From positions 1 to 20,626 of the IMG/VR virus record IMGVR_UViG_3300042392_000749: a DNA stretch of 20,626 nucleotides; one strand, 5' to 3'. The stretch is from a virus. The position numbers were made by a program, and so were the translations under genes. The notes beneath the pieces are model-generated. The model did no database searches. It had not been told where the DNA came from and worked only from the letters and a program-made list of their open reading frames with translations. Shown here piece after piece: positions 1,856-16,189 of the stretch (the stretch's first letter is position 1; each line of letters starts with the position of its first letter).

Positions 1856-2224
1856 TTAATCTTGTATGTATATATAATTTTCATTTACTTCATTCGGAGA
1901 GATATATTGTGTAAATGGATTGCTTTCTTGGACACCTTGCAATATTGCAATTCCTTTGAAAACATTAGTTGTCGTATCCCCAAAAATATTTAATATATAT
2001 TCCCCCAAATAGTTTAAATCATCAGTATCTAATGGTAATACAATTTCACAGTAACGAATATTCTGTTCATATTGTGCTGGATCAGACGTTGAAACAGTAT
2101 AGGATTTGGACTCCTTACTCATAATATGTACAAAGTTCAAAGTATAGCCAGTAAAAGTATCCCTACTATTATTGTTTATATTAAGAACTAATGTATTTTC
2201 TTGACCTTTATTGATGTATAACAT
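1856..2224 (-). CDS. Small beta-rich phage structural protein, function unknown
   Basis: I choose the start at 2224, giving 122 aa beginning MLYINKGQEN. A longer frame begins at 2278, but that ATG sits at the end of the U tract of an intrinsic terminator and adds a Phe/Ile/Asn-rich leader that looks like translated untranslated DNA. The protein alternates polar and hydrophobic residues throughout and seems all-beta. It resembles small proteins often found between capsid and tail genes in Bacteroidota phages (pattern: INK, a 'Y.LNF' strand, 'R..E..LPL', 'LGEY.LNI'). No catalytic residues are visible. It lies directly before the portal with two bases between, under a separate copy of the 14-nt motif. 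A minor structural or head-decoration role is possible but not shown. Confidence 0.65.
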   Translation of the reverse strand: MLYINKGQENTLVLNINNNSRDTFTGYTLNFVHIMSKESKSYTVSTSDPAQYEQNIRYCEIVLPLDTDDLNYLGEYILNIFGDTTTNVFKGIAILQGVQESNPFTQYISPNEVNENYIYIQD

Positions 2225-2236
2225 ATTATCTTTCTT

Positions 2237-2250
2237 ATTATTAAATATAA
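2237..2250 (-). promoter_or_regulatory. 14-nt upstream motif TATATTTAATAATA, copy 1
   Basis: The minus strand reads TATATTTAATAATA followed by AGAAAG, 12 bases before the ATG at 2224. It is immediately downstream of the intrinsic terminator, an arrangement expected of a promoter restarting transcription for the 122-aa, portal and connector genes. TATATTTA matches seven of the eight positions (counting the two free ones) of the Bacteroidota -7 element TAnnTTTG. Promoter function is inferred. Confidence 0.45.
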
Positions 2251-2278
2251 AAAAAATCATTTTGAATTGGTATAGCAT

Positions 2279-2307
2279 AAAAAAAAGGGTCCGAAGACCC
2301 TCTTTTT
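2279..2307 (-). terminator. Intrinsic terminator with cUUCGg tetraloop
   Basis: On the minus strand the sequence is an A-rich run, then GGGTC-TTCG-GACCC, then eight T. The stem closes on the very stable C(UUCG)G loop and is followed directly by the U tract, the textbook form of a rho-independent terminator. The flanking A and T runs can extend the stem, and there is also a T-rich stretch on the plus side, so it may work in both directions. It ends the transcript after the probable tail-tube gene. Confidence 0.85.
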
Positions 2308-2343
2308 ATTAGAAGATATAGAAATTCGGTCAAAGACCTACAA

Positions 2344-2925
2344 TTATGCTACCACAATTGCACCAAAGATAGAAATTAAATAATCGTCACCTGATACATC
2401 GTTAGCATCTAAAGAAGTGCTTATTAAAGTATTAGCTGGAGTATTTTCTTGACCTGTGAAGATCATTTCAAATCCATTTCTATCACCGTACGCCGTACCC
2501 GTTCCTGCAGAACCACCTGATAAATACATCCCGTGTACCTGACCTAACAAGTAGAATGCATTATTTTGGTCTTGTGCAACGATTTGGATTTGGTCGTTTT
2601 GTGATAAGACTTTTAATTTATTTCTTTTCTCTTGGTCGTAACGGAACAAGATTGCTGTAAGAACTTGTTCAAAATAGATTGTACCATTTTCAAAGTTCTT
2701 TTGTACGTTTTGTGCTAAGCTGCTTGTGTTGCGCTTAAGCTCAAAACCATAGAGTGTAGAACCAGCTACTGAAGTAGCACCAGTGATTGCACCATCTGCG
2801 TCGTAAGTGTAACCAGTAATACCACCAAGAGTTGTACCTGTACCACCTACTACCCATATTTTTTTGACACCACCAATACCATCAGAACAACCGAATGCTT
2901 CACCTGAAGTTATATAACAAGACAT
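2344..2925 (-). CDS. Probable major tail (tube) protein
   Basis: 193 aa. The protein is Gly/Thr/Ser-rich and beta-stranded. It has a central segment 'FELKRNTSSLAQNVQKNFEN' (about 61-80) and 'GTIYFEQVLTAIL' (81-93), then a helix and strand 'NKLKVLSQNDQIQIVAQDQN', and the C-terminal pattern 'YLLGQVHGMYLSGGSAGTGT' (125-144) and 'MIFTGQENTPAN'. In Bacteroidota phages this layout (Gly-rich start, long amphipathic strand pair, 'F.GQE..PA') belongs to a small structural protein usually interpreted as the tail tube subunit, which stacks into the DNA conduit around the tape measure. Its place directly after the capsid gene fits. It has its own 76-base leader with a hairpin and is followed by a strong terminator. 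The tube call rests on context and general fold and is moderately certain. Confidence 0.55.
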   Translation of the reverse strand: MSCYITSGEAFGCSDGIGGVKKIWVVGGTGTTLGGITGYTYDADGAITGATSVAGSTLYGFELKRNTSSLAQNVQKNFENGTIYFEQVLTAILFRYDQEKRNKLKVLSQNDQIQIVAQDQNNAFYLLGQVHGMYLSGGSAGTGTAYGDRNGFEMIFTGQENTPANTLISTSLDANDVSGDDYLISIFGAIVVA

Positions 2926-2960
2926 AATTTATATGTTTAAATTTTTTATTTATTTTTTTT

Positions 2961-2981
2961 AAAGGGGACTTTCACCCCTTT
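2961..2981. other. Hairpin in capsid/tail-tube spacer
   Basis: A perfect 7-bp stem (AAAGGGG / CCCCTTT) encloses a 7-base loop in the 76-base spacer between the capsid and tube genes. On the minus strand it is followed by A-rich sequence rather than a U tract, so it is a poor terminator for the genes here. On the plus strand it is followed by TTTTGTTTTT and would act as a terminator for antisense transcription. It may instead protect or process the capsid mRNA 3' end. Confidence 0.5.
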
Positions 2982-3001
2982 TGTTTTTATATTTTTTTAG
3001 A

Positions 3002-3964
3002 CTATGCTAAGTTGTTTGTTGCGAAGTACGCTGTTGAACCAAATGTTGCAATTTGTGCACCATAGTTATAGTTCGCTCTTAAACGTAATTCATCAAAATC
3101 CTTAGAGTACCAGATAACCAATTTCTCGTGATCTGACAATAAGTCAAAACCTACTACGATATACTCGCGTGGTCCAATTACTACTTGGTTAGAACTGTTC
3201 AAACCGATAGTTGGAACAACTTTAACATTTGTATTTGGATGTACAGCTTCCATATTCGCAGTAATATCAGCACCACCAATGTAGTTAGCGAAGAAGTTAG
3301 CTCTAGTTAATGCTTGTACATATAAACGGAAGTTAGCGTAAGACATAAACACTACTAAATCTTCTCTTGACATAGCGTTGTCATCTAATACGTTGATTAA
3401 CTTATCAATTTCTGTGATAGGGTTACCACTTGTTCCGTAAGATGCAGTTGAACTGAAAGTTACACCACTTGAGTTTGCAACACCTGTTGTTCCTGTACTA
3501 ATCAAGGTTTTGAAACCGTTGAAACAAGAAGAACCAGTTGTAGCTTGCCACAATTGTTGTTCAATTCTTTGTTGGATTTGTTTAACTTTTAAATTTGCTA
3601 TTTGCTCCTCAAATGGAACTGACTCAGATGTTTGACCTGGCGCCATTAACATTGATTGGTATGTGTCATACAAATCTTTGTAACATAAAGCTTCATTATA
3701 CTTTTCAGGACAAGTTGTGATATTAGCTTGTGTGAAAGTTGTTGTACCTGATGGATCCCATCCGCAAGTACCATCGTTGAAAAACGCTGTAGAGTTTAAA
3801 AGGTTCAACGCTTGTGTTCCTTTGATACCTAAACGTACGTTTGCGTAACGTGCAGTTGTACCACCTATTAACGCCTTTGAAAGTAATTCACCACCTACTT
3901 GGTCAACGTATGAACCGATTGTTGCAACGTCATAAGCGAATTGTTCTTTTGATAAAATTTTCAT
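3002..3964 (-). CDS. Major capsid protein
   Basis: 320 aa. This is the shell subunit, expected to adopt an HK97-like fold. The recognisable core is 'TTTFTQANITTCPEKYNEAL' (about 74-93), a pattern seen in capsid proteins of Bacteroidota phages. A helical segment 'EEQIANLKVKQIQQRIEQQL' follows, corresponding to the spine helix region, and the A-domain-like C-terminal half contains 'VFMSYANFRLYVQAL' and 'IVVGFDLLSDHEKLVIWYSK'. Cysteines at about 67, 85 and 94 cluster near the start. The gene order protease, scaffold, capsid is the canonical head-building cassette. The 17-base leader is A-rich (AAAAAAAATAAGAAA before ATG), the kind of leader that promotes high expression in Bacteroidota. Length and neighbours support the call strongly, but the fold is inferred. 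Confidence 0.8.
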   Translation of the reverse strand: MKILSKEQFAYDVATIGSYVDQVGGELLSKALIGGTTARYANVRLGIKGTQALNLLNSTAFFNDGTCGWDPSGTTTFTQANITTCPEKYNEALCYKDLYDTYQSMLMAPGQTSESVPFEEQIANLKVKQIQQRIEQQLWQATTGSSCFNGFKTLISTGTTGVANSSGVTFSSTASYGTSGNPITEIDKLINVLDDNAMSREDLVVFMSYANFRLYVQALTRANFFANYIGGADITANMEAVHPNTNVKVVPTIGLNSSNQVVIGPREYIVVGFDLLSDHEKLVIWYSKDFDELRLRANYNYGAQIATFGSTAYFATNNLA

Positions 3965-3981
3965 TTTCTTATTTTTTTTAG

Positions 3982-4719
3982 TTATTTGTTATTTTGTCTT
4001 AAAGACATAATCATAGATATTTTATCATCCATTTCATTGTCTTTAGGTTGTTTATTAAAATCTGTTTTTCCATTAGCAATTGGTTTTGCTGCTGGTTCTT
4101 TTTTGAATGCTTTAAATTCGTTTTCTAATGTTGAGTAATTTGACTCTATTTGTGCCATTTTCTCACCCATTTTACTAACAAACTCTTTTAACATATCCAT
4201 CATTTCTTTTGACATATCCATTGAAGGAACTTCAACTTCAACTTCAACTTCAGGTTTTTCATCTTCAGAAACAACTTCTTCAATTTTTGCGATAATACCC
4301 TCTTTGGTTTCTACTTTAGTTCCGTCCTCAAGTTCGTGAACACCATCTGGTGCAGGTATTTCTGCGTCAGGGGTAACCACAATAACTTTAGCACCTTCTA
4401 CTAAACTATCACCTTCAACTTTAATGACTGTACCGTCAGCGAGTTTTGCATCCATAAAAATTTCTTTTACTGTTTTGATTGAACCGTTCTTAACTTCTAT
4501 TTCAAAGTTTTCAACTAATCTGTATTTACCATCTTCTAAAGCCACTTGTTCAAAAGCATCGTTAATCTTTACGATTGACTTACCTACCTCTAACTTATCA
4601 GTTTGAAGGATAGTGTTATCTTCTAATTTAAATGACAATAATGTTGGTTCATCAGCTAAAAATCCAAACTTAACCATCAAAGATTTAATCTCTTGAATTG
4701 CGTTTTTAGAATTTGACAT
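3982..4719 (-). CDS. Probable capsid scaffolding protein
   Basis: 245 aa, acidic. Residues about 20-135 look like small beta domains with repeated motifs 'LEDGKYRLVENFEIEVKNG', 'LADGTVIKVEGDSLVEGAKV' and 'APDGVHELEDGTKVETKEG', each ending in a Gly turn. A run of EVEVEVEV (encoded by four perfect GAAGTT copies) leads into a Met/Lys/Glu-rich coiled coil (about 168-205, 'EMMDMLKEFVSKMGEKMAQI'). The C-terminus is Lys/Asn-rich and polar. Scaffolds are temporary internal cores whose basic C-terminal part binds the capsid subunit. The position between protease and major capsid gene, the acidic/coiled composition and the charged tail fit that role. Similar 'PAPDG..LEDGT' proteins occur next to capsid genes in related phages. 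It is preceded by a 73-base leader with motif copy 2. Confidence 0.65.
   Translation of the reverse strand: MSNSKNAIQEIKSLMVKFGFLADEPTLLSFKLEDNTILQTDKLEVGKSIVKINDAFEQVALEDGKYRLVENFEIEVKNGSIKTVKEIFMDAKLADGTVIKVEGDSLVEGAKVIVVTPDAEIPAPDGVHELEDGTKVETKEGIIAKIEEVVSEDEKPEVEVEVEVPSMDMSKEMMDMLKEFVSKMGEKMAQIESNYSTLENEFKAFKKEPAAKPIANGKTDFNKQPKDNEMDDKISMIMSLRQNNK
4228..4251 (-). repeat. Hexanucleotide tandem repeat (GAAGTT)4
   Basis: Four perfect copies of GAAGTT on the minus strand encode Glu-Val four times in the hinge between the beta domains and the coiled coil of the scaffold-like protein. It is a short slippage-prone tract; the length change would stay in frame in steps of two residues. Confidence 0.85.
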
Positions 4720-4752
4720 AATTGTTTATTTGTTTTAATTTATTATTCTCTT

Positions 4753-4766
4753 ATTATTAAATATAG
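4753..4766 (-). promoter_or_regulatory. 14-nt upstream motif TATATTTAATAATA, copy 2
   Basis: The minus strand reads TATATTTAATAATAAGAGA in the 73-base spacer between protease and scaffold genes, 33 bases before the scaffold ATG. It shares the downstream AAGA with copy 1. The spacing would leave a 5' leader of ordinary length if it is a promoter serving the scaffold, capsid and tube genes, all needed in high amount. Function is inferred. Confidence 0.45.
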
Positions 4767-4792
4767 ATTTAGATATATATTACCATATGTTT

Positions 4793-6274
4793 TTAATATT
4801 TCTTCAATATCTCGGCTACCTTGTATAAGAACATCTCCTCTTTTGTGAAAGAAGAAACCTCCTCAAAGAAACCAGACACAGAAAATCCATTCAATTTACC
4901 ATCTTTAACTTTTTTCCAAATCTCTTCATTTTTAACTTTCATTGATACAAACCAAGTACCAACAGGGGTTGACTCATAACCATATTTTGTTGACTTATCT
5001 GATTCATCTTCCTTAATCCAAGACTCAATTACATATACATCCTTAACAGCTTTACCGTCGTGCATTTGGTCATTGTTGTCTGTATATTTGTTTTTCATAT
5101 ACTTCTCAGCAATCATCTTGATTGTTTCAGCACTGAAGAAAACATAATACGGATTACCCAAAGAATCCTTACGGAATATCTTTTGATCAGGAATCATTGC
5201 TGGTCCAAGTACAATTCTCTTTTCCTCATTATCAATTTGGAAATATTGTTTTGACATTTTCTCCTCTTGATTAATTTTTGATTCAGCCCAACTTAAAGCA
5301 GACTTACCTCCCCAACTATCATACATCAATTTACCACAACCATCACCATATCCTTTTGAACTTTCTAAATCAACCTCGTGTCTTGATAAGTAACTATACA
5401 TTCTTTTCACCGTATCTAAACTGATTGGTTCACCATTAGCAAGTTGATTAGCACGCTGTTTTCCCACATCTGTTCCACAAGAACCCCATCCATTCTCATC
5501 AACATATTTCAATACAGCTTTAGCATTATTCTTAACACTATCAGGATAGTCTGAATAACTATCAAACATAGTTGGTTTAACTAATGATTTTGATATTGTA
5601 TCACCTGATACTTCATCAACATATGATGGTAATGGATTGTCATAACCAAATGATTCTTTACCTGGTACTCTTGTATCTGGTTGAGGTAATCCCATAATAT
5701 CCAAACTCTCATCACCTTCCACTCTACCTTTTCTAACGGATGATTTGTTTACAATTTCTGTACCTCTACGATATGTTATTTTCTCCCAAATATGACGACA
5801 GTTATAAGAACCACGCCATACCATAGCAGATGAACCTAAGTCATTTATAATAGATTCTAAATCCTCAACTCTATAAACTAAGTTCTTACTTAATAAATCC
5901 CTACAAAAGTCTCTTGTTGTATCTATTACAGGTGCACCATTAGCTTGTGGGTTTAATATATATTTATATCTAATTAGAAAGTTTTCTGTATCTTCAAATG
6001 AAGGTTGATTTGGTGAGGAAGAAACAAAGTCTTCTTTAACTCTTTCCCATCCATCAGAAAATAACTCCTCTTCCAATTGACCCTTTTGGGTAATCATCTC
6101 AGAGTAAGTTAAATCTTGACCATCAGGAATTACAAATTCCTCTGGTTTCACCTTATTGAAGAACATCCAATTAACTTCTATTGCTGGTTCGTCAACTAAA
6201 GATATACTGTCAATACCTGAAATGGCATCGTCTTCTTCTATCTTTAATTCAAATATTTTATCTTTCTTTATCAT
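4793..6274 (-). CDS. Prohead protease, XkdF-like (Peptidase S78_2) with large insert
   Basis: 493 aa. The C-terminal domain (about 343-470) matches the XkdF-like putative serine protease family: 'RIVLGPAMIPDQKIFRKD', 'YYVFFSAETIKMIAEKYM', a His in 'QMHDGKAV' (His405), 'VYVIESWIKEDESDK', 'GTWFVSMKVKNEEIWKKVK' and 'LNGFSVSGFF' with candidate nucleophile Ser465. Such enzymes cleave scaffold and capsid proteins during head maturation. The N-terminal strand 'ISGIDSISLVDEPAIEVNW' (18-36) normally sits close to this domain but is here separated by about 300 residues. The insert has two recognisable modules: 'TTRDFCRDLL...YNCRHIWEKITY' (119-168), resembling Cys/His motifs of phage head-morphogenesis proteins, and 'DSVKNNAKAVLKYVDENG' to 'GDGCGKLMYDSWGG' (245-323), a module seen in other phage prohead proteases. 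Upstream: 41-aa gene and motif copy 3 directly before the ATG. Confidence 0.8.
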   Translation of the reverse strand: MIKKDKIFELKIEEDDAISGIDSISLVDEPAIEVNWMFFNKVKPEEFVIPDGQDLTYSEMITQKGQLEEELFSDGWERVKEDFVSSSPNQPSFEDTENFLIRYKYILNPQANGAPVIDTTRDFCRDLLSKNLVYRVEDLESIINDLGSSAMVWRGSYNCRHIWEKITYRRGTEIVNKSSVRKGRVEGDESLDIMGLPQPDTRVPGKESFGYDNPLPSYVDEVSGDTISKSLVKPTMFDSYSDYPDSVKNNAKAVLKYVDENGWGSCGTDVGKQRANQLANGEPISLDTVKRMYSYLSRHEVDLESSKGYGDGCGKLMYDSWGGKSALSWAESKINQEEKMSKQYFQIDNEEKRIVLGPAMIPDQKIFRKDSLGNPYYVFFSAETIKMIAEKYMKNKYTDNNDQMHDGKAVKDVYVIESWIKEDESDKSTKYGYESTPVGTWFVSMKVKNEEIWKKVKDGKLNGFSVSGFFEEVSSFTKEEMFLYKVAEILKKY

Positions 6275-6288
6275 ATTATTAAATATAA
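6275..6288 (-). promoter_or_regulatory. 14-nt upstream motif TATATTTAATAATA, copy 3
   Basis: The whole 15-base spacer between the 41-aa gene stop and the protease ATG is TTTATATTTAATAAT, so the motif runs straight into the start codon (last A of the motif is the A of ATG... TAATAATATG). Copy 4 has the same abutting arrangement. It is either a translation-start context or a promoter giving a nearly leaderless transcript; the sequence alone cannot decide. Confidence 0.45.
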
Positions 6289-6289
6289 A

Positions 6290-6415
6290 TTATCTTCCCT
6301 GAGATCTGTAGGGTTTAGGTTTTTGACTTTTGGGTCCCCAAGATTTTTGTGCTTTACCACCTTTTCTTTTACCAAAAGTTACTTTATTGTTTGATTGATT
6401 TTTTCCCTTTGCCAT
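6290..6415 (-). CDS. 41-aa highly basic small protein
   Basis: A complete frame of 41 codons fills the gap between tape measure and protease. Its ATG (6415-6413) shares one base with the tape-measure stop (TAATG), and it ends at TAA 15 bases before the protease ATG. The product starts MAKGKNQSNN and continues with KVTFGKRKGGK and a Lys/Pro/Gln-rich tail ending PYRSQGR. It has about 14 Lys/Arg and no acidic residues, so it should bind nucleic acid or an acidic partner. The packing at both ends, the coupling junction and the biased composition argue that it is real. A nucleic-acid-binding or virion-internal role is possible, and no family is recognised. Confidence 0.7.
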   Translation of the reverse strand: MAKGKNQSNNKVTFGKRKGGKAQKSWGPKSQKPKPYRSQGR

Positions 6416-9345
6416 TATAATGTTGAAAGGTCCTTTAACCTTGTTTGTTTTTCTATTTCTGATTGCATATCTTTTGAAACCACATAAGTCTTTAAGATTA
6501 CAGGTGATTGTTCTTTTGAGTAATCAGCTAATTTTGGATTATCAAATCTTGCAGCACCTGTAGCACCTTTACTGAATGATGTACCACCACCCATTTGATT
6601 CATAGCTGATAGTAATGGTGCAAACATAGTTACAGCACCTCTTGTCATAACAGCTTCACCACCTTCAGCGGTAATTGGAACACCACCATTTGAGTGTCTT
6701 GGTCCTTCAATCATACCACCATCACCATAGTTTCTACCTAAATTATTTGAAGCTGGTGCACTTGAACCACCACCTCCACCACCATCGTATTGTGTACTCT
6801 TAATTAAAGCTACCTTCTTATAACCAAATACTAAAGCTGCGGCCGCTGCGGCTGCACCCAATACAGGTCCAACCACAGGTATAACTGCTAAAGATTGGTA
6901 GGCTTGAATTGCACCTTGTAAGGTTCCAATAATTGCTTGTGCAATTTGTACATTCTTATTCTTTTCAAAATATTTCTTCTTAATCTTATCTTCCTCTTCC
7001 GCATTACCTTTGACTTTTTGTAAGTCTTGGTCCATTTCCATTTGGTTAATTTCACTAACATCACTGAAAGCATTACTAACAGCAGCTAATCCTGCACTTA
7101 TAAAACCTAAATAAGCATTTAATTTTTCTGATTGTAAGTCTTTTGATAATTGTGCATATTTTTGTTCAATTGCTAATTTCTGTGCTTCTGTTAAATCTAA
7201 CTCAGCCAATTCCCTTTCTTTAGCCTTGTTTAATAATTCTTGTCTTCCATTCCAATAAGCATTGAAACTATTCTTATTTGCTTCATTTGTTATTTGAAGA
7301 AATCTAAGGTCACTATCAAGTTTAGCTATCTTTTCATCGTTCTCTCGTTTTCTCTTATCTTCATCAATTTTCTTTAGGTCCCTATCTAAAATCTTAGCCA
7401 TAGCTAATCTTAATGCATTTTTATCCATTTCAGACATTGCAATAAAATTCTTATCTTCTTCTAGTTGTTTTGAATCTTCATTAAATTTTAATTGTCTTTG
7501 TTCCTTCTCTCTTTTAGTTTGGTCATCAATTGATTCAATTAAAATTAATTGTTTCTTTTTAGCAAACTCTTCCCTTTTCTTGGCTTCTTCTTCTAATAAT
7601 TTTAAATCTTCATCTTGTCTTTTTTGATTTAATTGAACTATCTTAACACCATATTTTACAAAGATTTGAAGTTTTAATTTCTCTTTCTTTTCCTCACTAA
7701 TTTGTAAAGCATCAACTTTAGCAGCTTCACCTTCAGCTTGTATTTGAAGTTCCTTATCTTCTCTTTCTCTTACTGTTTTTAATGTTTGAACCGCGTTATT
7801 TTGTTTAAGTTCCAATAACATCTTATCGGCTTCAATATTATCCGCAGCAATCTTTTCTAATCTCTTTTTTTCTTCCTCTCTTTCTTTATCTCTGATTGTT
7901 TTGATATATTCTAAACCAGCAAATTCAATATCGTTTCTTTTCTTAACATAACTTGCTGAAGCTTCAGTTATTTTTTTATCAATATCGTTTGCAACCTTAG
8001 CTTTTTCTTCAGCACTAAGTTTTCCGTCTTTTGCTGACTTAGCCCTTAATGCTTGTAAATCACCAATTTGTTTTGAATATAATTGTTTCTCTTGTTCTAA
8101 ACCATCTTGAGTAATCTTCAATAAATCTTCAGCTGACTTACCTTCAATTTGTGCAAGTAATGTTTTCTTTTTAGTTTGATACTCAACACCTTGTAAATTT
8201 TTATTTAAAGCCTCAGTATTTCTTTCTAAAGCTTTGGTATATTTGTCAGTATTATCGGCAGCCTTTTTAGTTGCATCAGCTGTAGACTCAGTCCAACCTA
8301 ACCAGTCAGTACCTATCTTTATTAACTTTAATATGGGTTCTAATAATAAACTAAGTAAACTAATAAGAATCCCAATACCTATTGATTTTAAAGCCACACT
8401 CAACGCAACCGCTGCAGTTGCTGCCGCATATTCTGCAATACTTAAAGCCGTAAAAGCTGACATTAATACTCTACTCAATATAGTTGATTGTGCAAGTGCA
8501 ATCATATTGGCTTTTCTCGCTGTCGTATTTACAAGTGTAGCAGTTGTTTGTGCTGTTTCAGTACCAGCCAATTGCATATTGGCGGTAGCTAAACCTTTAG
8601 ATTGTAATATTGCATATTGTTCAGTATTAGATAAACGATTTAACGCAACCGCTTGTTGTTGTGTAATTTCATTATTACGTAATAATGATTTTGTATATTG
8701 ACCAAACGCAAGATCTAGTTCTTTTAATGAACTTGCATATTTTTTATCACCAATTGAACGTTTAACTGAATTAATTTCCGCTTGTTTTTGTGCAACTGTT
8801 AATCCAACAGTTGCAGTAGTTAAAGCACTTGTTGTTCCAGCAGCGACTGCCGTCGTTGTTGCAACTTGACTATTTGCACTAGCTAAAGATTGTGTGGCTC
8901 CAGCGGCTTCTTTAATTGAACTTGAATCAACTTTTCCACCTTTTACCTCTGGTAATTTTAAACCCAATAGGTTCTTACCAATATCTAAAATATCATTACC
9001 TGTTTCCTTTAATTGGAAACCTAAATCCTTTAAACTAAAACTTGAAAAGGTTTTTAATAGACCAATAACACCATTTAACTTTCCAAATAAATCACCAACA
9101 GGACCTGGTATTAATGAAAGTGACGCAAATAAATCCCTTGATTTGGCGTTAGTTGCTGCCAATCCATCCTGAACATCTCCTAATTTTGTTGATAAAGCCT
9201 GAAACTCTGCGGTTCCTTCTTTTGTTTTTCTTAATTCAGCAGTTAGTAATCTAGCCTGTTGTTGTAAGTTTTTGGTTTTATCAATTGCAACATCAATAGG
9301 TTTACCATTAATGTCGTATATAATTTCAATTTTCTTTGATGCCAT
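6415..9345 (-). CDS. Tape measure protein
   Basis: 976 aa, the ruler that sets tail length and is ejected ahead of the DNA. Layout: N-terminal helices (about 1-285), a hydrophobic Ala/Leu/Ile-rich membrane-active segment (about 288-342, 'IGIGILISLLSLLLEPILKL'), a very long Lys/Glu coiled coil (about 355-765), a second hydrophobic Ala-rich segment with 'VIPVVGPVLGAAAAAAALVF' (about 795-840), a Gly-rich hinge, and the C-terminal motif 'GGMIEGPRHSNGGVPITAEG' followed by GEAVMTRGAV that is typical of phage tape measures. The end 'KTYVVSKDMQSEIEKQTRLK' also recurs in Bacteroidota phage tape measures. At roughly 0.15 nm per residue the tail would be near 145 nm, supporting a long non-contractile tail. 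The upstream 65-aa gene is in the tail-chaperone position; the 41-aa gene overlaps its stop. Confidence 0.9.
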   Translation of the reverse strand: MASKKIEIIYDINGKPIDVAIDKTKNLQQQARLLTAELRKTKEGTAEFQALSTKLGDVQDGLAATNAKSRDLFASLSLIPGPVGDLFGKLNGVIGLLKTFSSFSLKDLGFQLKETGNDILDIGKNLLGLKLPEVKGGKVDSSSIKEAAGATQSLASANSQVATTTAVAAGTTSALTTATVGLTVAQKQAEINSVKRSIGDKKYASSLKELDLAFGQYTKSLLRNNEITQQQAVALNRLSNTEQYAILQSKGLATANMQLAGTETAQTTATLVNTTARKANMIALAQSTILSRVLMSAFTALSIAEYAAATAAVALSVALKSIGIGILISLLSLLLEPILKLIKIGTDWLGWTESTADATKKAADNTDKYTKALERNTEALNKNLQGVEYQTKKKTLLAQIEGKSAEDLLKITQDGLEQEKQLYSKQIGDLQALRAKSAKDGKLSAEEKAKVANDIDKKITEASASYVKKRNDIEFAGLEYIKTIRDKEREEEKKRLEKIAADNIEADKMLLELKQNNAVQTLKTVREREDKELQIQAEGEAAKVDALQISEEKKEKLKLQIFVKYGVKIVQLNQKRQDEDLKLLEEEAKKREEFAKKKQLILIESIDDQTKREKEQRQLKFNEDSKQLEEDKNFIAMSEMDKNALRLAMAKILDRDLKKIDEDKRKRENDEKIAKLDSDLRFLQITNEANKNSFNAYWNGRQELLNKAKERELAELDLTEAQKLAIEQKYAQLSKDLQSEKLNAYLGFISAGLAAVSNAFSDVSEINQMEMDQDLQKVKGNAEEEDKIKKKYFEKNKNVQIAQAIIGTLQGAIQAYQSLAVIPVVGPVLGAAAAAAALVFGYKKVALIKSTQYDGGGGGGSSAPASNNLGRNYGDGGMIEGPRHSNGGVPITAEGGEAVMTRGAVTMFAPLLSAMNQMGGGTSFSKGATGAARFDNPKLADYSKEQSPVILKTYVVSKDMQSEIEKQTRLKDLSTL

Positions 9346-9346
9346 T

Positions 9347-9544
9347 TTATACTAATTCGTTTTTTATATCCTCAAAAGACTTTTCTAAAAGATTCTTTTC
9401 ACCCTTTAATGATTTTATTGAACTTAAATCAAATTCATACATTATTACATTTTCTCTGATTTTATATAATTCATCAGTATAGTTTGTAATTATTAAACTT
9501 GATAAGTCTATCTTTTCTTCGTTTTCAAAAATTTCTATTTTCAT
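9347..9544 (-). CDS. 65-aa acidic protein in tail-chaperone position
   Basis: 65 aa, Glu/Asp/Lys/Ile-rich, beginning MKIEIFENEEKIDLSSLI and ending DIKNELV. Its stop is one base before the tape-measure ATG (TAAAATG), and it starts 10 bases after the 336-aa gene. In siphophages the gene just before the tape measure normally encodes tail assembly chaperones, which bind the tape measure as the tube forms around it; this small acidic protein could take that part. The family is not recognised. An in-phase heptamer A AAA AAC lies near its 3' end (9365-9359), the kind of site used for -1 frameshifting in chaperone genes, but it may be chance in AT-rich DNA. Confidence 0.7.
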   Translation of the reverse strand: MKIEIFENEEKIDLSSLIITNYTDELYKIRENVIMYEFDLSSIKSLKGEKNLLEKSFEDIKNELV

Positions 9545-9554
9545 ATTCTATATT

Positions 9555-10565
9555 TTAAGGACAACCTGATTGACCTGTTGCAGTTATAAAGTAAGTTGTT
9601 CCTGGTGTTGATGGTGTAAATCCTGTAATTACATAGAAATATCCATAACTACCTTCAACTCTATCACCACTATTATAGGTTCCATAAGGTAATTGTTGTG
9701 AATATTTGGTTTCAAATGTTTGACAATCAGTCATTATATAATATCCATCATTACCAGATGTTGGAGTCGGTGTTGGCGATGGACTTGGTGCACTTCCACA
9801 ACTTGAACCACAGTTAGTTACTGTAAAATTTGCTAAGTCAGCAAAAGGAACCCCTACAAATATTGTTGCACAATCCAAACAAGCGGTCAATGTAACCGTT
9901 CCTAACGAACCAATAAATTGATAGGTACTTCCAGTCGTTGTTGTGTATTTAATCCAACCAGTGTCCGTTACATTCAACGTAGCACCACTTGTATAATTTC
10001 CACCAGGCGTTGCTGAAGGAGTAGGAGTTGGAGTTGGTGTTGTATTTGTTGCGGTAGGACTTGGAGTTGGAGTAGGCGTTGGAGTTGGTGGGGTAATTGT
10101 ACTTACCACAAAACTTGCACATATTGGGAATATAGACCTATGTCCTATCATTCTAATATCAATTACATACGTTCCATTAGTAAATCCTGCTATTTCAAAC
10201 TGAGAAGGTAACATAGTAAATGTAAATGTTCCACCTGTTGAACTCAATGCTATATTAGATGAGGACTCAAAATCAATTAACCTCCAAGGTTTGAAGTAGG
10301 TTCTTGATGGTTCCATTGCGTGAACCGAGAACAGATTTAAATCACTTGCTTGTGAGATAAACGGTTCTGCACCATTCAAACTCCAAGTATAACTAAATTG
10401 GATTGTTATTCCTGTATATGTTACAGTTGTAGCTGAGAAGTTTGTTACCGTACCACTAACCGAATTGTTATTTATGTCGTGGATAATTTCAACATCGTAC
10501 TCAGGAACTGTATTGTTCGGATATACGAAATTTTTACTATCTATCTGTTTTATATATTTCCTCAT
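9555..10565 (-). CDS. Pro/Thr-linked virion protein (tail or fibre accessory)
   Basis: 336 aa in three beta-rich parts joined by two Pro-Thr linkers. Residues 1-157 form an N-terminal domain ('KNFVYPNNTVPEYDVEIIHD', 'SVSGTVTNFSATTVTYTG') of a type found in other Bacteroidota phage structural genes. The linker at about 158-187 is PTPTPTPTPSPTATNTTPTP-like. A Cys-containing domain follows (about 190-257, with CLDC and NCGSSCG), then a short PSPSPTPTPT linker, then a small C-terminal domain with 'YIMTDCQTFETKYSQQLPYG'. The two last domains look like independent adhesin modules that could be exchanged. The same linker style is used by the hub gene directly upstream, so the two are probably parts of one tail-tip assembly. 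No signal peptide and no enzyme motif are visible. Confidence 0.65.
   Translation of the reverse strand: MRKYIKQIDSKNFVYPNNTVPEYDVEIIHDINNNSVSGTVTNFSATTVTYTGITIQFSYTWSLNGAEPFISQASDLNLFSVHAMEPSRTYFKPWRLIDFESSSNIALSSTGGTFTFTMLPSQFEIAGFTNGTYVIDIRMIGHRSIFPICASFVVSTITPPTPTPTPTPSPTATNTTPTPTPTPSATPGGNYTSGATLNVTDTGWIKYTTTTGSTYQFIGSLGTVTLTACLDCATIFVGVPFADLANFTVTNCGSSCGSAPSPSPTPTPTSGNDGYYIMTDCQTFETKYSQQLPYGTYNSGDRVEGSYGYFYVITGFTPSTPGTTYFITATGQSGCP
9757..9790 (-). repeat. Pro-Ser/Thr linker repeat
   Basis: A low-complexity tract encoding PSPSPTPTPTSG that separates the second and third domains of the 336-aa protein. On the plus strand it shows the GTTGGAGTCGG-type pattern shared with the linkers of the hub gene. 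Confidence 0.8.
10003..10093 (-). repeat. Pro-Thr linker repeat
   Basis: About 30 residues of PT dipeptides with short SPTATNTT and SATPGG breaks, joining the N-terminal domain of the 336-aa protein to its Cys-containing domain. The underlying DNA is a quasi-repeat of CCAACTCC/CCTACTCC units close to those in the hub gene. Confidence 0.85.
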
Positions 10566-10579
10566 ATTATTAAATATAA
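10566..10579 (-). promoter_or_regulatory. 14-nt upstream motif TATATTTAATAATA, copy 4
   Basis: The 17-base spacer between the hub stop and the ATG of the 336-aa gene is ATTTTATATTTAATAAT, so the motif abuts the start codon exactly as in copy 3. It could be a start-site context that replaces Shine-Dalgarno pairing, or a promoter for the 336-aa, 65-aa and tape-measure genes. Confidence 0.45.
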
Positions 10580-10582
10580 AAT

Positions 10583-13500
10583 TTACGTAATGTCATCGTT
10601 CCAAACGATTTTAATTTGGTCTCCTTGATTTATAACAACACTATTAAATGTTCTTGTAATTGTTGATGTTGTTGGACATATAGGTAAAGTACCTGATGCA
10701 CTTGTACTATTAATTTCAACATTGTTTACATATAAAGTTACAGTTGCACCCCAATTAGTAGCATTTGCTGCCGCTTGACATAATTTTCTACTTGCAGTAA
10801 CATTATATGTACCAGCTAATGAACCATAACTTTGAACACCTCTACTCGATGAAAATGAAAAACTTCCAATTGTTATTGCGGAATAAGTTTTTGTTATTGC
10901 ATTAATATTAATAGTTAATCCACTCCAAGTTCTTACACCATCATTTATTGCAGTTGATGAAACAACATATTCTGCACTTGTTATTGGTCTAGACCCTGTT
11001 GGTGTAATAGTCTGAGTTGGTGTGGGCGTAGATGTTTTAGTAACCGTAGGGGTTGGAGTTGGAGTTTTAGTTTGCGTTTGAGTTGGTGTAGGCGTAGGAG
11101 TTTGGGTTTTAGTTTGTGTTGGTGTTTGAGTAGGTGTTGTTGTTGGCGTAGGAGTTGGAGTCGGTTGACTACTCAATAAAATTGGGTTAGATAAACAACA
11201 TTGATTGTTTGATTGTAACTCAATATATGTACTTCCACTTGTTGAACCATTTTGAATATCAAATGTATAACCAGATAATAATTCAGATTGTGTTACACCA
11301 GTAGCAACGGCTGTCAAATAATTAGTTCCATCACCATAAATTGAAAATAATGAAGATTCATTTGAACCAAAATTAGTTGCGGTTAATTTATAAGTTGTTG
11401 AATATAAATCTATAGTTGGAATAGAATTTAATCCTATAGCAACTTGATATGCATCAAAACTATAATATATAGAAGATGGAGTTGAAATATATAACCAATA
11501 TACATTTGTATCATTATATGTAAAACTAAAATTACCAGTTCCAATAGTTCCAGTTGAAACAATTGTATTTAAATAACCATCTTTAATTGTGTAAGAATTA
11601 TATCTTGTAAAACTATTAACGTTAAAATAAATTGTATCACCACTTACCGCACCTGTTAAATCTAACAAAATTGGGTCATATGAGTAAGCAGGAAAGTTTA
11701 CAAATTTATTACTATAATGATTTGAACCCAAAGTCCAAGATTCAACCGTTGAACCTGTTACACCACAATTATATGGTGTTGGTGTTGGGGTTGGTGTTAC
11801 AGGTCCACCACTAGCTGATGGAGTTGGTGTTGGAGTTGGATTAGTATATGTATAATCTATTACATCGCCATCAAAATCTGTTTTAATTAAACAAGAAAAA
11901 TAGAATCCGTTATAAGAAATAAAATCACCACTAATCATCAAATTTGAATTTGATAATTCTATTACTTTTCTTATTATAGTATTTGCTGCCCAAGTTGGTG
12001 CAATTATAGTTGGGTTGGTAAATGAATTATCAATACTACCATCAGAATTTAATCTACATATATTATTTTTAGATGTACCACTATATTGTGTGAATGAACC
12101 ATATATTAATAATTTATTATTTGATAATTCCGTAACACCCTGAATAATATTTGAAGTGATTGAACTTGTGAAAGTATTATCAACACTACCATCTGTATTA
12201 ATTCTTACAATTGAATTTTTAGAAACTCCATTATAAGAAGTTATTTCACCAACTACTATATATTTTCCACTTTGTAATTCAATAACTTGATATAAATCAT
12301 CTGCAGTAAAACCAGTACCACCTACATTAAATGTAGAATCAAATGTACCATCATAATTTAATCTACAAATACCATTTGCTGTATTACCATTATATTTGTT
12401 AAAAGGACCGACAGCTAAAAACTTACCATCAGATAATTCAATAATATTTGTTGGTCCTCTATGAAGATTATTAAATTTAAATCCACTTTCACAATTATAA
12501 TTAAAATGAATATTATAATCTCCGTTTGAATTTAATTGATGTAAACCAGTTTGTGTTTCACCACTATACCCAACACCTCTATCATTATAAACCATTATTT
12601 TATCATCTGATGTTACAAATGAGAATAATCCATATTGGTTTCCTGTAAAATTATGATTACTATTAAAATTAGTATCAATATTACCATATTGGTCTAACTT
12701 TACTATAAATTCAACTGGTTGTCCATTATAATATTCTAAAAAACTTGTTATTATAAGTCCATTATCTTTTGTAATACTAACAGATTCAGGTAGTGAATTT
12801 GTGAATCCTGTTGCTATGTTTAATGTATCATCCGCATCACCATTATTATACATTCTTATAATATTACCATAATTATATAACTCATTTTGTGATTTTACTT
12901 GATCATAGTTACCAACAGTAATAACTCTATCATCATTACCAGGATATTTCTTCATATCTGTAATCCATCTATTAAATCCTAATGGCACAGGAGTTGGAGT
13001 TGGAGTTGATGTTTGAGTTGGAGTATTAGTTGGGGTTGGAGTAGGTGGAAATAAAATTTTACCATCAATATGATATTCAAAGTTATAATCCAATACATCA
13101 GGTAATACCACAAATGTAATATCTTGTTCTGTAGAACCAGTAACTCCACTAATATAAGTTTCTCTTATTCCATTATCTCCGCCTTGGTCATCAGTTGTAT
13201 AATCAATTCTACTTACATCAATTGAATTAGTAAATGAAACACCTAAAGTATTAATTTTAATATAAACTGTGTCACCAGAATATAAATAAGTTGTATATAA
13301 ATTAGTTATATCAGAATATACTAATTTTCTATCAACTCCATTTACCCTACATTCAATATCTGATGGATTTGAAAAACCATTAATTTCATAATAAGATACT
13401 ATCAAACTACCTCTCATTTCACCAGGAATTTCAACCGATGGGGTTGCACTTGGAGTAGGTGTAGGAGTTGGAGTTATAGCTGTACCAAAATATGTTGAAG

Positions 13501-16189
13501 AACCCGTTGTGATTCCATAAGTTGATGCTGTTGAATAGAAATTAGCACAATCTGTAAATAGATTTGAACCTTGTGTAGTTGAACCACTGTTTAACCAAAA
13601 TGTTGGCATAGAATATTGGAATGGTCCACCAATTTCATCATTGTAAATATGGTTATGTAATGTATCACTATCCCAATCTATACCTGATGTGTTATATGTT
13701 TCTTCACTAACCTCGTATATTGTATAAGGGGCATAAACTGTATTTGAAAATCCTTGAACATATTTGAAAGAAGAAGTAAATCCTGATGATTGACTTGGTA
13801 AGTTACCAACCTGATGGTCATAATAAATTGACCAACCAAAATTGGAATCCAATAAATTAGGTTCTGTGAAATATGTTTTAAATTTGTAAACAATAGAAGT
13901 ATTATCACAATAGTAATATTGGAAGTATCTATCTGTATATGTTTTAGGTGCATTGTTAAATTGAACTAATTCAACCTGACTTAATTCCCTATTTGTTAAG
14001 TTAAAATCTGTAATCTTACTAACAACGAAATACTGTTCATTTACCTTGATTAAATCCTGTGGTTGTAAGTTCTTTATATCTGAATAGTTAAGGTCAAAAT
14101 ACCCCGTTAAAACCCTTGTATTTGGATTGTACAGGTTTGACACTCTACCTTGATAGTAAGAGGTGTACGCATCGTTTTCTGTGTACGTATTATAAGGTTG
14201 AACACCAATGGTTGTATCAATAGGTAACTCAGAATTAAATAATATACATTGACTATCGTTATTAATCTTTTGACTATCTGTCATACCCATCGGCATTGTA
14301 TGGGAAATTACAGGTAATCTATCGTATTGGTTGTATGTACTTCCACTTGAATTGGATATATAAGCCACATATGTCTTGTAATAATATGTTGCATCGTATG
14401 TTTCACCAACCACATCTAAGAATGGATTGAACGCACCTAAGTACCAAAACAATTTTGGTTTAGTTTTAACACCATTGTATTGCCAGTTTACCTGATTACC
14501 TTGTGCTTCACTACTATTACTAACATAGTTTATACCTAATGGTAAACTAATATTGTTTGTATTGTCATTATCCCACTTACGTAGTAACTGTGGTCCGAAT
14601 ATAGTTGTAATATCTTTCCTTTGTGATTTAAAATCAGTTGGGTTATATACAATATTCTGTCCGTATATTCTATTCTTACTCTTTTTAAATTGTGCATTAC
14701 CCTCGTCACCATCTTCTGAATCTGAAATGAATAATTCACTTTCAATAAAGTTTAATGCTGGTTGAACTGAGAATCCTTTGTCAAAACTTAGTTTGTTGGA
14801 CCAGTTATGAACAACACCCGTTCCAATAAAATAATCGTATGGTTCTATTCTAATCTTATATCCATCATCAGGATCAGGGATGAGAACTAAATTAAATTTC
14901 TTTGCAATAGATGATAATAAATCTATCTGTTTTATATTTTGGTCAATAACCAAACTAAAATCTACGTAGTCACCATCAACAAAAGTTACACTATCACCAA
15001 CCGCTTTGGGTAAATAAGATAATGATGTACCATTTGGTACTTGTGATGATTCACCGTAAGAAAATGGTAATCCAATATCACTAACTGTTATACCTGATGT
15101 TCCATAAGGAATTACAGCATCAACAGTATAATAATCATATGTATAATCATTAAAATAATATAATCTAACATTAATATCTTCATCACAAAAAACAGGAATC
15201 CCTGTTCCCAATTTTGCAACAACACACAAAACACTATTACCTTCTTCTACAAAGAAAACTTCCACACCTTCTATTGGTAATGATTGAATTTCATATATCG
15301 TCCAACTAAATTTAACATTGTCAGATGAAAAATATCCATATAGATATAATGTTTTCATCCAAGGTGTGTTAAAAAAGTCTGAGGTTATTTGGTAACCTTG
15401 AGTCTTAAACATCAACTGTAATAAATTCCATACACTTAAACCAGCTTTCAATTGATTATTGAATGGTCCTTGAGTTGGTGAGTTAATCCTAAATTCTTGA
15501 ACACCAGCAGCATAAGCTGCGGCTAATGTTGGATAAGAATCTAATGGACTTGTTGATGTATATAAACGACAACGTTCAATTATGGTTCCACCTGAAAAGT
15601 TTACAGTATTTCCTGTGTCATATAAATAACCATTGTGTACCACAGGATACATATATGGATATGGTTGTTCACCATCGATTGTATAATTAGAATATGTAAA
15701 CGCTCTGGTTACATTATCCAAATTAAATATGTGATTAAACTGATAATCGCTATCATTAAAATCTAAATCTTTTAATAAGTTGTTTCCTATTGAACCATAT
15801 AGTTCAGCAGGTGTTGAAAATAAAGTCACATCATATTCTACCGCAGAGTCTTTAACACTAATTTTATTTAATCTTAAATAACCTGTGAAGTAAGCTTCAT
15901 CATTAATCAATACATTACAAGGAACCCTTTTATTTGGATTGAAAAATAATGACTGTGCATCAACGTTAAAGAAGTTTTCAAAGAAAGCATTATTCTTTTT
16001 AGAACCAGGAAGCATAACACCAACCGAATAGTCAGAGTTTCTTTTTCCTATGTCTCCTAATTCAGCAAATGATTTTGTGACAGCAATTGGGATACTACTA
16101 TATAAATCTAAAAAATCATATTCAGTAATACCAGTATTGGTATTAACATTATCCAATTGAACCCTTAATACGGTTTGTTGTTGACTCAT
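10583..16189 (-). CDS. Giant tail-hub / tail-tip adhesin with delta-60 propeller
   Basis: 1868 aa. The N-terminal 760 or so residues resemble tail-tip/baseplate-hub proteins of Bacteroidota phages: 'FLDLYSSIPIAVTKSFAELG', then 'RNSDYSVGVMLPGSKKNN' and 'FFNPNKRVPCNVLINDEAYF'. Four Pro-Thr linkers (near 905, 1046-1068, 1447-1473, 1675-1730) then divide the protein. The module at about 1068-1447 has seven repeats of the form 'VVGxxxxYNG...I.RLN.DGS.D.TF', matching the delta-60 (DUF5122) beta-propeller, for example 'ICRLNYDGTFDSTFN', 'IVRINTDGSVDNTF' and 'ICRLNSDGSIDNSF'. A C-terminal beta domain (about 1731-1868) contains WSGLTININAITKTYSAI and a 'LCQAAANATNWGA' segment. The protein probably sits at the tail tip, with the hub holding the tube end and the linked modules contacting the host surface. 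It starts two bases after the 529-aa gene. Confidence 0.75.
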   Translation of the reverse strand: MSQQQTVLRVQLDNVNTNTGITEYDFLDLYSSIPIAVTKSFAELGDIGKRNSDYSVGVMLPGSKKNNAFFENFFNVDAQSLFFNPNKRVPCNVLINDEAYFTGYLRLNKISVKDSAVEYDVTLFSTPAELYGSIGNNLLKDLDFNDSDYQFNHIFNLDNVTRAFTYSNYTIDGEQPYPYMYPVVHNGYLYDTGNTVNFSGGTIIERCRLYTSTSPLDSYPTLAAAYAAGVQEFRINSPTQGPFNNQLKAGLSVWNLLQLMFKTQGYQITSDFFNTPWMKTLYLYGYFSSDNVKFSWTIYEIQSLPIEGVEVFFVEEGNSVLCVVAKLGTGIPVFCDEDINVRLYYFNDYTYDYYTVDAVIPYGTSGITVSDIGLPFSYGESSQVPNGTSLSYLPKAVGDSVTFVDGDYVDFSLVIDQNIKQIDLLSSIAKKFNLVLIPDPDDGYKIRIEPYDYFIGTGVVHNWSNKLSFDKGFSVQPALNFIESELFISDSEDGDEGNAQFKKSKNRIYGQNIVYNPTDFKSQRKDITTIFGPQLLRKWDNDNTNNISLPLGINYVSNSSEAQGNQVNWQYNGVKTKPKLFWYLGAFNPFLDVVGETYDATYYYKTYVAYISNSSGSTYNQYDRLPVISHTMPMGMTDSQKINNDSQCILFNSELPIDTTIGVQPYNTYTENDAYTSYYQGRVSNLYNPNTRVLTGYFDLNYSDIKNLQPQDLIKVNEQYFVVSKITDFNLTNRELSQVELVQFNNAPKTYTDRYFQYYYCDNTSIVYKFKTYFTEPNLLDSNFGWSIYYDHQVGNLPSQSSGFTSSFKYVQGFSNTVYAPYTIYEVSEETYNTSGIDWDSDTLHNHIYNDEIGGPFQYSMPTFWLNSGSTTQGSNLFTDCANFYSTASTYGITTGSSTYFGTAITPTPTPTPSATPSVEIPGEMRGSLIVSYYEINGFSNPSDIECRVNGVDRKLVYSDITNLYTTYLYSGDTVYIKINTLGVSFTNSIDVSRIDYTTDDQGGDNGIRETYISGVTGSTEQDITFVVLPDVLDYNFEYHIDGKILFPPTPTPTNTPTQTSTPTPTPVPLGFNRWITDMKKYPGNDDRVITVGNYDQVKSQNELYNYGNIIRMYNNGDADDTLNIATGFTNSLPESVSITKDNGLIITSFLEYYNGQPVEFIVKLDQYGNIDTNFNSNHNFTGNQYGLFSFVTSDDKIMVYNDRGVGYSGETQTGLHQLNSNGDYNIHFNYNCESGFKFNNLHRGPTNIIELSDGKFLAVGPFNKYNGNTANGICRLNYDGTFDSTFNVGGTGFTADDLYQVIELQSGKYIVVGEITSYNGVSKNSIVRINTDGSVDNTFTSSITSNIIQGVTELSNNKLLIYGSFTQYSGTSKNNICRLNSDGSIDNSFTNPTIIAPTWAANTIIRKVIELSNSNLMISGDFISYNGFYFSCLIKTDFDGDVIDYTYTNPTPTPTPSASGGPVTPTPTPTPYNCGVTGSTVESWTLGSNHYSNKFVNFPAYSYDPILLDLTGAVSGDTIYFNVNSFTRYNSYTIKDGYLNTIVSTGTIGTGNFSFTYNDTNVYWLYISTPSSIYYSFDAYQVAIGLNSIPTIDLYSTTYKLTATNFGSNESSLFSIYGDGTNYLTAVATGVTQSELLSGYTFDIQNGSTSGSTYIELQSNNQCCLSNPILLSSQPTPTPTPTTTPTQTPTQTKTQTPTPTPTQTQTKTPTPTPTVTKTSTPTPTQTITPTGSRPITSAEYVVSSTAINDGVRTWSGLTININAITKTYSAITIGSFSFSSSRGVQSYGSLAGTYNVTASRKLCQAAANATNWGATVTLYVNNVEINSTSASGTLPICPTTSTITRTFNSVVINQGDQIKIVWNDDIT
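11000..11166 (-). repeat. Long Pro-Thr/Gln/Lys linker repeat
   Basis: About 55 residues made almost only of PT, QT and KT dipeptides (such as PTQTQTKTPTPTPTVTKTST), the longest linker in the window. It connects the last Cys-containing module of the hub protein to its C-terminal beta domain. The DNA is a run of near-identical 6-base units. Confidence 0.9.
11774..11850 (-). repeat. Double Pro-Thr linker repeat
   Basis: Two short PTPTPTP tracts separated by SASGGPV, marking the exit of the seven-repeat propeller and the entry of the next module of the hub protein. Confidence 0.85.
12986..13050 (-). repeat. Pro-Thr/Gln linker repeat
   Basis: Encodes PPTPTPTNTPTQTSTPTPTP immediately before the propeller module of the hub protein, so the propeller is bounded by a linker on each side, as expected for an exchangeable cassette. 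Confidence 0.85.
13440..13476 (-). repeat. Short Pro-Thr linker repeat
   Basis: Encodes TPTPTPTPSATPSV at about residue 905, the border between the hub region and the first attached beta module of the 1868-aa protein. Confidence 0.8.

Follow-up and report, generated by a model that had tools for sequence, protein, structure and literature searches.

A conserved 14-nt element is almost certainly a promoter of virion genes in a freshwater phage family and is probably read by a phage-encoded sigma factor

Results

The 14-nt motif and its gene context

The viral DNA analyzed here, hereafter the window, is a stretch of 20,626 nt in which all genes lie on the minus strand. An exact search of the window located four copies of the 14-mer TATATTTAATAATA, all on this coding strand and all in spacers, and found no copy on the plus strand and none of the reversed pattern. 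A preliminary description of the same DNA had reported this number and strand correctly, but its coordinates were one too high. The motif copies and the features adjoining them are listed below.

1856–2224, minus strand: post-capsid gene, 122 aa (MLYINKGQ...), start set from orthologues; first gene of the portal/neck unit
2236–2249, minus strand: motif copy 1, exact match, putative promoter core and initiator, ending about 12 nt before the ATG at 2224
2279–2306, minus strand: intrinsic terminator recognized from its sequence, GGGTC-TTCG-GACCC and then T8, just upstream of copy 1, where it would end the capsid transcript
3002–3964, minus strand: capsid-like gene, 320 aa, named for its position and conservation, with a weak match to a PHROG of unknown function
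3982–4719, minus strand: scaffold-like gene, 245 aa, named for its position directly before the capsid gene
4752–4765, minus strand: motif copy 2, exact match, ending 33 nt before the ATG at 4719, mRNA with a leader predicted
4793–6274, minus strand: head maturation protease gene, 493 aa, with matches to head maturation protease PHROGs
6274–6287, minus strand: motif copy 3, exact match, final A shared with the start codon, leaderless mRNA predicted
9555–10565, minus strand: tail-module gene, 336 aa, an ORF with PTPTP repeats that starts at copy 4
10565–10578, minus strand: motif copy 4, exact match, final A shared with the start codon, leaderless mRNA predicted

Two copies thus share their last A with the start codon. 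The remaining two stop short of it by about 12 and 33 nt, the distances given previously. The earlier statement that no copy lies inside a gene also holds: copy 1 would fall within the post-capsid gene if the longest ORF, from 2278, were taken, but orthologues set the conserved protein start at 2224. The terminator that had been noted before copy 1 was likewise found, as a hairpin and T8 at about 2279–2306, and CCCTTTTTT is kept at the terminator position in the post-capsid gene class. The capsid-like gene has no promoter of its own and is presumably read from copy 2. A PHROG search gave no match for the post-capsid gene or the scaffold-like gene. AGA follows two of the copies, as had been reported; TGA follows the other two, so that the common bases are wGA.

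Two further features of the encoded proteins were observed. Residues 84–173 of the protease gene product (4793–6274) match the C-terminal part of a portal PHROG, and the window portal gene (699–1853) is without that part. The tail proteins carry collagen-like GSSGTSGTSG and PTPTPTP repeats (window 20100–20626 and 9555–16189).

The window spacers are 83% A+T, and a repeated 14-mer could in principle be a product of chance or a mutational by-product of such sequence. When up to three mismatches were allowed, 22 sites were found in the window against 24 expected, and this lack of excess indicates that the signal resides in exact or near-exact copies. The exact motif is present in four of the seven window spacers of at least nine bases, whereas Markov models of order 1–3 predict only 0.003–0.004 copies per strand. 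None of 100 dinucleotide shuffles of the window contained a match, and when spacers of this AT-rich composition were simulated 3000 times, no 14-mer was ever common to more than two of them. The preliminary description had named a shuffling test beforehand as a possible refutation of its reading; the 14-mer proved not to be expected at this frequency in AT-rich spacers.

Conservation of the motif in related phages

A search of IMG/VR with the capsid-like protein revealed more than 120 relatives by capsid gene, and 80 related loci were used here; for whole-contig tests, 16 longer contigs were joined. The 8-nt core TATATTTA occurred at 1.9 per kb in intergenic DNA and 0.065 per kb in coding DNA. 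It was the commonest 8-mer in the co-directional spacers of 17 contigs, with 73 sense versus 3 antisense occurrences, and 56 permutations of the same letters averaged 10 versus 73.

We then chose upstream regions by gene rather than by motif and scored them for the core [T/C]ATATTTA, counting distinct sequences. For the post-capsid gene, 63 of 64 upstream regions had the core (gap to the ATG, 10–18 nt), compared with 38 of 46 for the 337-aa gene (g337), 25 of 30 for the protease gene (gap, −1 to 1), 36 of 49 for the scaffold-like gene (gap nearly always 28–33 nt), and 11 of 20 for the tail gene (gap of −1 in 10 of the 11). None of the upstream regions of the control genes had it (0 of 62 for capsid, 0 of 61 for terminase, 0 of 66 for sigma, and 0 of 58 for neck), and the matches upstream of the portal gene (15/65) came mostly from the overlapping coding end NYIYIQD. 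Unselected orthologues therefore keep the core in 55–98% of cases depending on the gene, and those without it often carry a near variant such as TATATTTC or TATATTAA. This enrichment upstream of the same genes in relatives is what the preliminary description had proposed to look for. Such orthologous placement across dozens of diverged phages, together with the spacer simulation and the permutation counts, rules out a chance origin, to which we assign a negligible probability.

A profile was built from 72 sites with less than 75% identity; many of the relatives are not independent, and the full invariance of the core in the profile is partly due to selection, because the sites were picked by the core. 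T at −1 and A at +1 were present in 93% and 92% of these dissimilar sites, respectively. The flanks diverge while the element stays, apart from a weaker upstream pattern (T−36, C−28, A−27) and a nearly A/T-only stretch at −19 to −16. The final TA is kept even where it lies outside the ATG (T in 62 and A in 61 of 63 post-capsid sites; 35 of 35 scaffold sites).

The distance to the ATG was set by the gene (−1 to 1, 0 to 2, mostly 12–13, or 28 to 33 nt). This bears on the idea, also raised in the preliminary description, that the motif is a translation-initiation signal in place of a Shine–Dalgarno sequence. The overlap of two window copies with the ATG and the preference of Bacteroidota for A-rich bases before the start codon (PMC6847099) fit that idea, but the spacing spans −1 to 33 nt, constant for a given gene and different between genes, and so does not support it. 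Most genes of the same genomes, including capsid, terminase, and sigma, have no motif, and the motif follows terminators and keeps its TA even when the ATG lies further on. A ribosome signal is therefore scarcely credible; the gene-specific spacing, the terminator before copy 1, the position at the heads of presumed transcription units, and the TA kept outside the ATG argue for a promoter.

A single conserved element of approximately 14 bp could also be the binding site of another phage regulator, such as an activator, a repressor, or a packaging or replication protein, rather than a promoter core. The element is not palindromic, however; it almost always points in the direction of transcription, and its layout is that of a −10 element with an initiator, spaced from the starts as a promoter should be. 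We consider a regulator site very unlikely. The conserved, strand-specific, and gene-specific placement in relatives supports the promoter reading of the preliminary description, and it is almost certain that the 14-mer serves the virion genes as a conserved phage promoter.

Late promoter copies or near copies were also seen in both of two diverged tail modules, running from tape measure to fibre proteins, on a 45-kb contig (G003, 1–15262 and 32889–45153).

Comparison with host-type promoters

The Bacteroidota promoter consists of TAnnTTTG, with a nearly invariant G, plus TTTG near −33 (PMC6847099, PMC9723704). The likeness of the motif to TAnnTTTG, pointed out previously, is apt, but the difference in the last base is not minor. 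The late sites keep TAnnTTT and depart exactly at the final G: among 185 sites, the eighth base was A in 177, C in 5, T in 3, and G in none. The labels early and late were assigned from gene content and strand. TTTG was found 18–22 nt upstream of 8 of 57 late-strand sites versus 11 of 18 opposite-strand sites, against a background of 5%. Canonical TTTG/TAnnTTTG promoters are present in the same phages, mostly on the opposite strand.

In 16 Bacteroidota genomes (2.4–7.6 Mb each), TTTG-N18-20-TATATTTG occurred 244 times versus 69 for the reversed control, a 3.5-fold enrichment, whereas TTTG-N18-20-TATATTTA was barely enriched (144 versus 112). The 14-mer occurred 3 times versus 6 for its reversed control. 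These counts indicate that the element is not a common host promoter.

The main alternative to a phage sigma is that the motif is a host sigma-A promoter with TATATTTA as a variant −7 box, helped late in infection by a phage activator or by a high template copy number, with the phage sigma-like protein doing something else. The position-by-position layout is that of TAnnTTT(G), and these phages do have TTTG-N18-20-TATATTTA promoters, both ahead of the sigma operon and on the opposite strand. The core alone thus does not separate the two promoter classes, and host sigma-A may tolerate TATATTTA in promoters that bear TTTG. On the other side stand the complete lack of G at a base nearly invariant for host sigma-A (PMC6847099), the absence of TTTG from most late sites, the weak enrichment of the TATATTTA version in the Bacteroidota genomes, and the TA(+1) and upstream T−36/C−28 pattern peculiar to the late sites. 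The G-less last base and the mostly missing TTTG suggest a different specificity, for which a phage sigma-like protein is the simplest explanation, and we regard the host-promoter account as possible but unlikely.

We also observed a structured RNA of approximately 65–75 nt in the relatives, outside the window, at L085:4528–4594 (plus strand), in an L101 island near G007:19466 (minus strand), and in minority-strand islands of other relatives. It has a covarying closing stem of 9–15 bp, and the loop often contains GCCAT. The RNA also has a TTTG-N-TATATTTA promoter of its own, and several examples are followed by a terminator-like hairpin. Direct stem counting gave 17 distinct examples, compared with 1 of 80 control sites and 0 of 850 shuffles. 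An Rfam search with the window and three pieces of relatives gave no match, and the element looks like an undescribed phage small RNA.

Predicted position of the transcription start site

In Flavobacterium (F. johnsoniae), transcription starts 4–5 nt after the −7 box (PMC6847099), and in 11 of the 17 distinct examples of the structured RNA, the long covarying stem begins 5 nt downstream of TATATTTA. Both spacings point to the 14th base of the motif, its final A, as +1. TATATTTA would then be a −10/−7 type element spanning −13 to −6, and ATAAT would be the discriminator. With this assignment, +1 in copies 3 and 4 would be the A of the ATG, so that these mRNAs would begin with AUG, whereas copies 1 and 2 are predicted to give leaders of about 12 and 33 nt. 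The earlier prediction of leaderless or near-leaderless mRNAs for the abutting copies is thus supported by the spacing, and in the abutting classes of the relatives the mRNAs are predicted to be leaderless or to have one to three extra bases. An in-frame stop precedes any other upstream start in 22 of 26 protease genes and 37 of 43 g337 genes, and is present upstream in 11 of 11 motif-bearing tail gene orthologues, which suggests that these start codons are probably right.

Among host mRNAs, 87% have a leader of more than 10 nt in F. johnsoniae, and 5.5% are leaderless in F. psychrophilum (PMC6847099, PMC9723704). Phage transcripts were described as often leaderless in the AR9 paper (PMC5312081). 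Our literature searches found nothing on point for leaderless late phage mRNAs combined with a phage sigma, and no mention of the 14-mer.

A candidate phage sigma factor

A protein of 171–177 aa is encoded upstream of the terminase in all 43 relatives with enough upstream sequence. Its gene falls outside the 20.6-kb window fragment and is deduced from relatives, such as one with 79–86% DNA identity in blocks (G008). The best score against Sigma70_r2 (Pfam) was 16.8 bits, below the curated cut-off of 24, and 2 of 15 candidate members matched phrog_1740, RNA polymerase sigma factor; by sequence, the candidate is at best a divergent ECF sigma member. A PDB sequence search with the candidate alignment gave nothing significant, and we therefore compared folds. 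The AlphaFold model (171 aa; mean pLDDT, 83) has two helical domains in the layout of ECF sigma factors, namely, sigma2 and sigma4 domains without sigma3. Nearly all top fold matches in the PDB were sigma factors (sigma-E/RpoE, AlgU, SigL, SigH, WhiG, and sigma28). The sigma4 half superposed on domain 4 of WhiG, AlgU, and sigma-E with rmsd values of 1.4–2.8 (Z, 7.8–9.2), and the sigma2 half superposed on RpoE with an rmsd of 3.6 (Z, 7.8); single domains fitted, and full-length superpositions were poor owing to the domain arrangement. The best viral fold match was a protein annotated as sigma-70 region 2 (E, 5.5e-15), and GAP52 ECF sigma was also among the fold matches (E, 5.5e-3).

By E-value (1.6e-3), the top PDB match was 9n9q chain C, part of an RNA-guided transcription complex, with 20% identity, and an evolutionary link between the two is possible. 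A 57-kb contig (G001; L038, L054) carries two capsid genes and two sigma genes of different subtype, and represents either two joined genomes or a double set.

Among 43 distinct sigma operons, a TTTG...TAnnTTT[A/G] site lay before or within 23, and 25 had a late-type site. These sites fit a cascade from host to phage transcription, yet they also show that TATATTTA is not exclusive to late units.

Discussion

The promoter described here is probably read by a sigma factor that this freshwater phage family makes itself. Taken as a whole, it is likely that TATATTTAATAATA is a late promoter read by a phage ECF-like sigma, with a +1 that overlaps the start codon in copies 3 and 4; the sigma–motif pairing, the +1 position, the timing, and the leaderless translation are what we infer from the comparisons above. 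In the proposed scheme, host sigma-A would transcribe the sigma operon, which often lies behind TTTG-containing host-type promoters; the host RNA polymerase core with the phage sigma (from the operon upstream of the terminase) would then read TATATTTAATAATA in this family of tailed phages. The virion units so transcribed would comprise part of the tail, the protease, scaffold with capsid, portal with neck, and the 337-aa gene. An ATG over the final A would give an mRNA beginning with its start codon, and an ATG further downstream would give a leader.

These results provide a defined promoter and a candidate sigma for a large family of uncultured freshwater phages; with these, sequence alone allows late genes to be located and transcription units to be delineated. 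Because +1 would coincide with the start codon, leaderless mRNAs are predicted for virion genes in a phylum whose own leaderless mRNAs are rare. With the cultured phage P12024S, it becomes testable how ribosomes of such a phylum, which do without Shine–Dalgarno sequences, choose their start codons. For work in Bacteroidota, the combination of a small sigma and a compact promoter could also be useful as an orthogonal expression part. An alignment of the capsid against 84,980 species genomes gave no relative, and no host was assigned from that comparison; the hosts appear to be Bacteroidota-like, judging from P12024S and the promoter style.

The T4 late promoter has the consensus TATAAATA, and T4 late mRNAs are leadered. 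The T4 gp55 system resembles the one proposed here in its short, AT-rich, −10-only late promoter and its small phage sigma, but differs in promoter sequence and in the leaders. In the account of PMC7892883, T4 late transcription needs gp33 and the gp45 clamp. In phiEco32 (gp36) and phage 7-11 (gp47), a phage sigma-family protein also directs the host RNAP core to a short late element, and transcription starts 6–9 bp from it (PMC8948821), comparable to the motif here. The phiEco32 element is likewise a single −10-like sequence, tAATGTAtA (PMC8948821). By contrast, the motif of those phages is a different one, their proteins appear only distantly similar to the sigma here, judging from the GAP52 fold match, and leaderless late mRNAs are unreported in PMC8948821. 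The Bacteroidota sigma-A promoter shares TAnnTTT and the 4–5 nt to +1; here, however, A replaces G, TTTG is mostly absent, and the TA initiator is fixed.

A further parallel came from a search of cultured phages, in which the capsid and the G003 sigma had no match. The portal matched the Nonlabens phages P12024S and P12024L at 27% identity and, less strongly, two Microcystis phages and a fragment. P12024S (NC_018271) encodes gp33, annotated as Sigma-70 region 2, four genes before the terminase, and thus also has a sigma-like gene near the terminase. In addition, CGTTAnTA begins exactly 12 nt before the ATG of six genes on the structural strand, gp1, gp5, gp8, gp41, gp44, and gp45 (L196: 167, 3019, 5400, 23949, 25189, and 26790), with a AAAACAAA-like sequence further upstream; none of the papers found describes this motif. 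CGTTAnTA would be an ECF-like −10 element of the CGT type, with the start codon at the expected place of +1, and is a probable late promoter of this cultured phage. Unlike the motif here, it has the form TTYCGTTAnTA and ends a few nucleotides before the ATG, and a profile comparison of the sigma here (A1) with gp33 gave no significant similarity. Because both sigma and motif differ, P12024S looks like the same design realized with a different pair. We see an even chance that several aquatic phage lineages, probably infecting Bacteroidota, whose ribosomes do without Shine–Dalgarno pairing, have a phage sigma that makes virion gene transcription begin with the A of the ATG, with leaderless translation built into late expression, and that this arrangement arose with different promoters in different lineages, TATATTTAATAATA here and CGTTAATA in P12024S.
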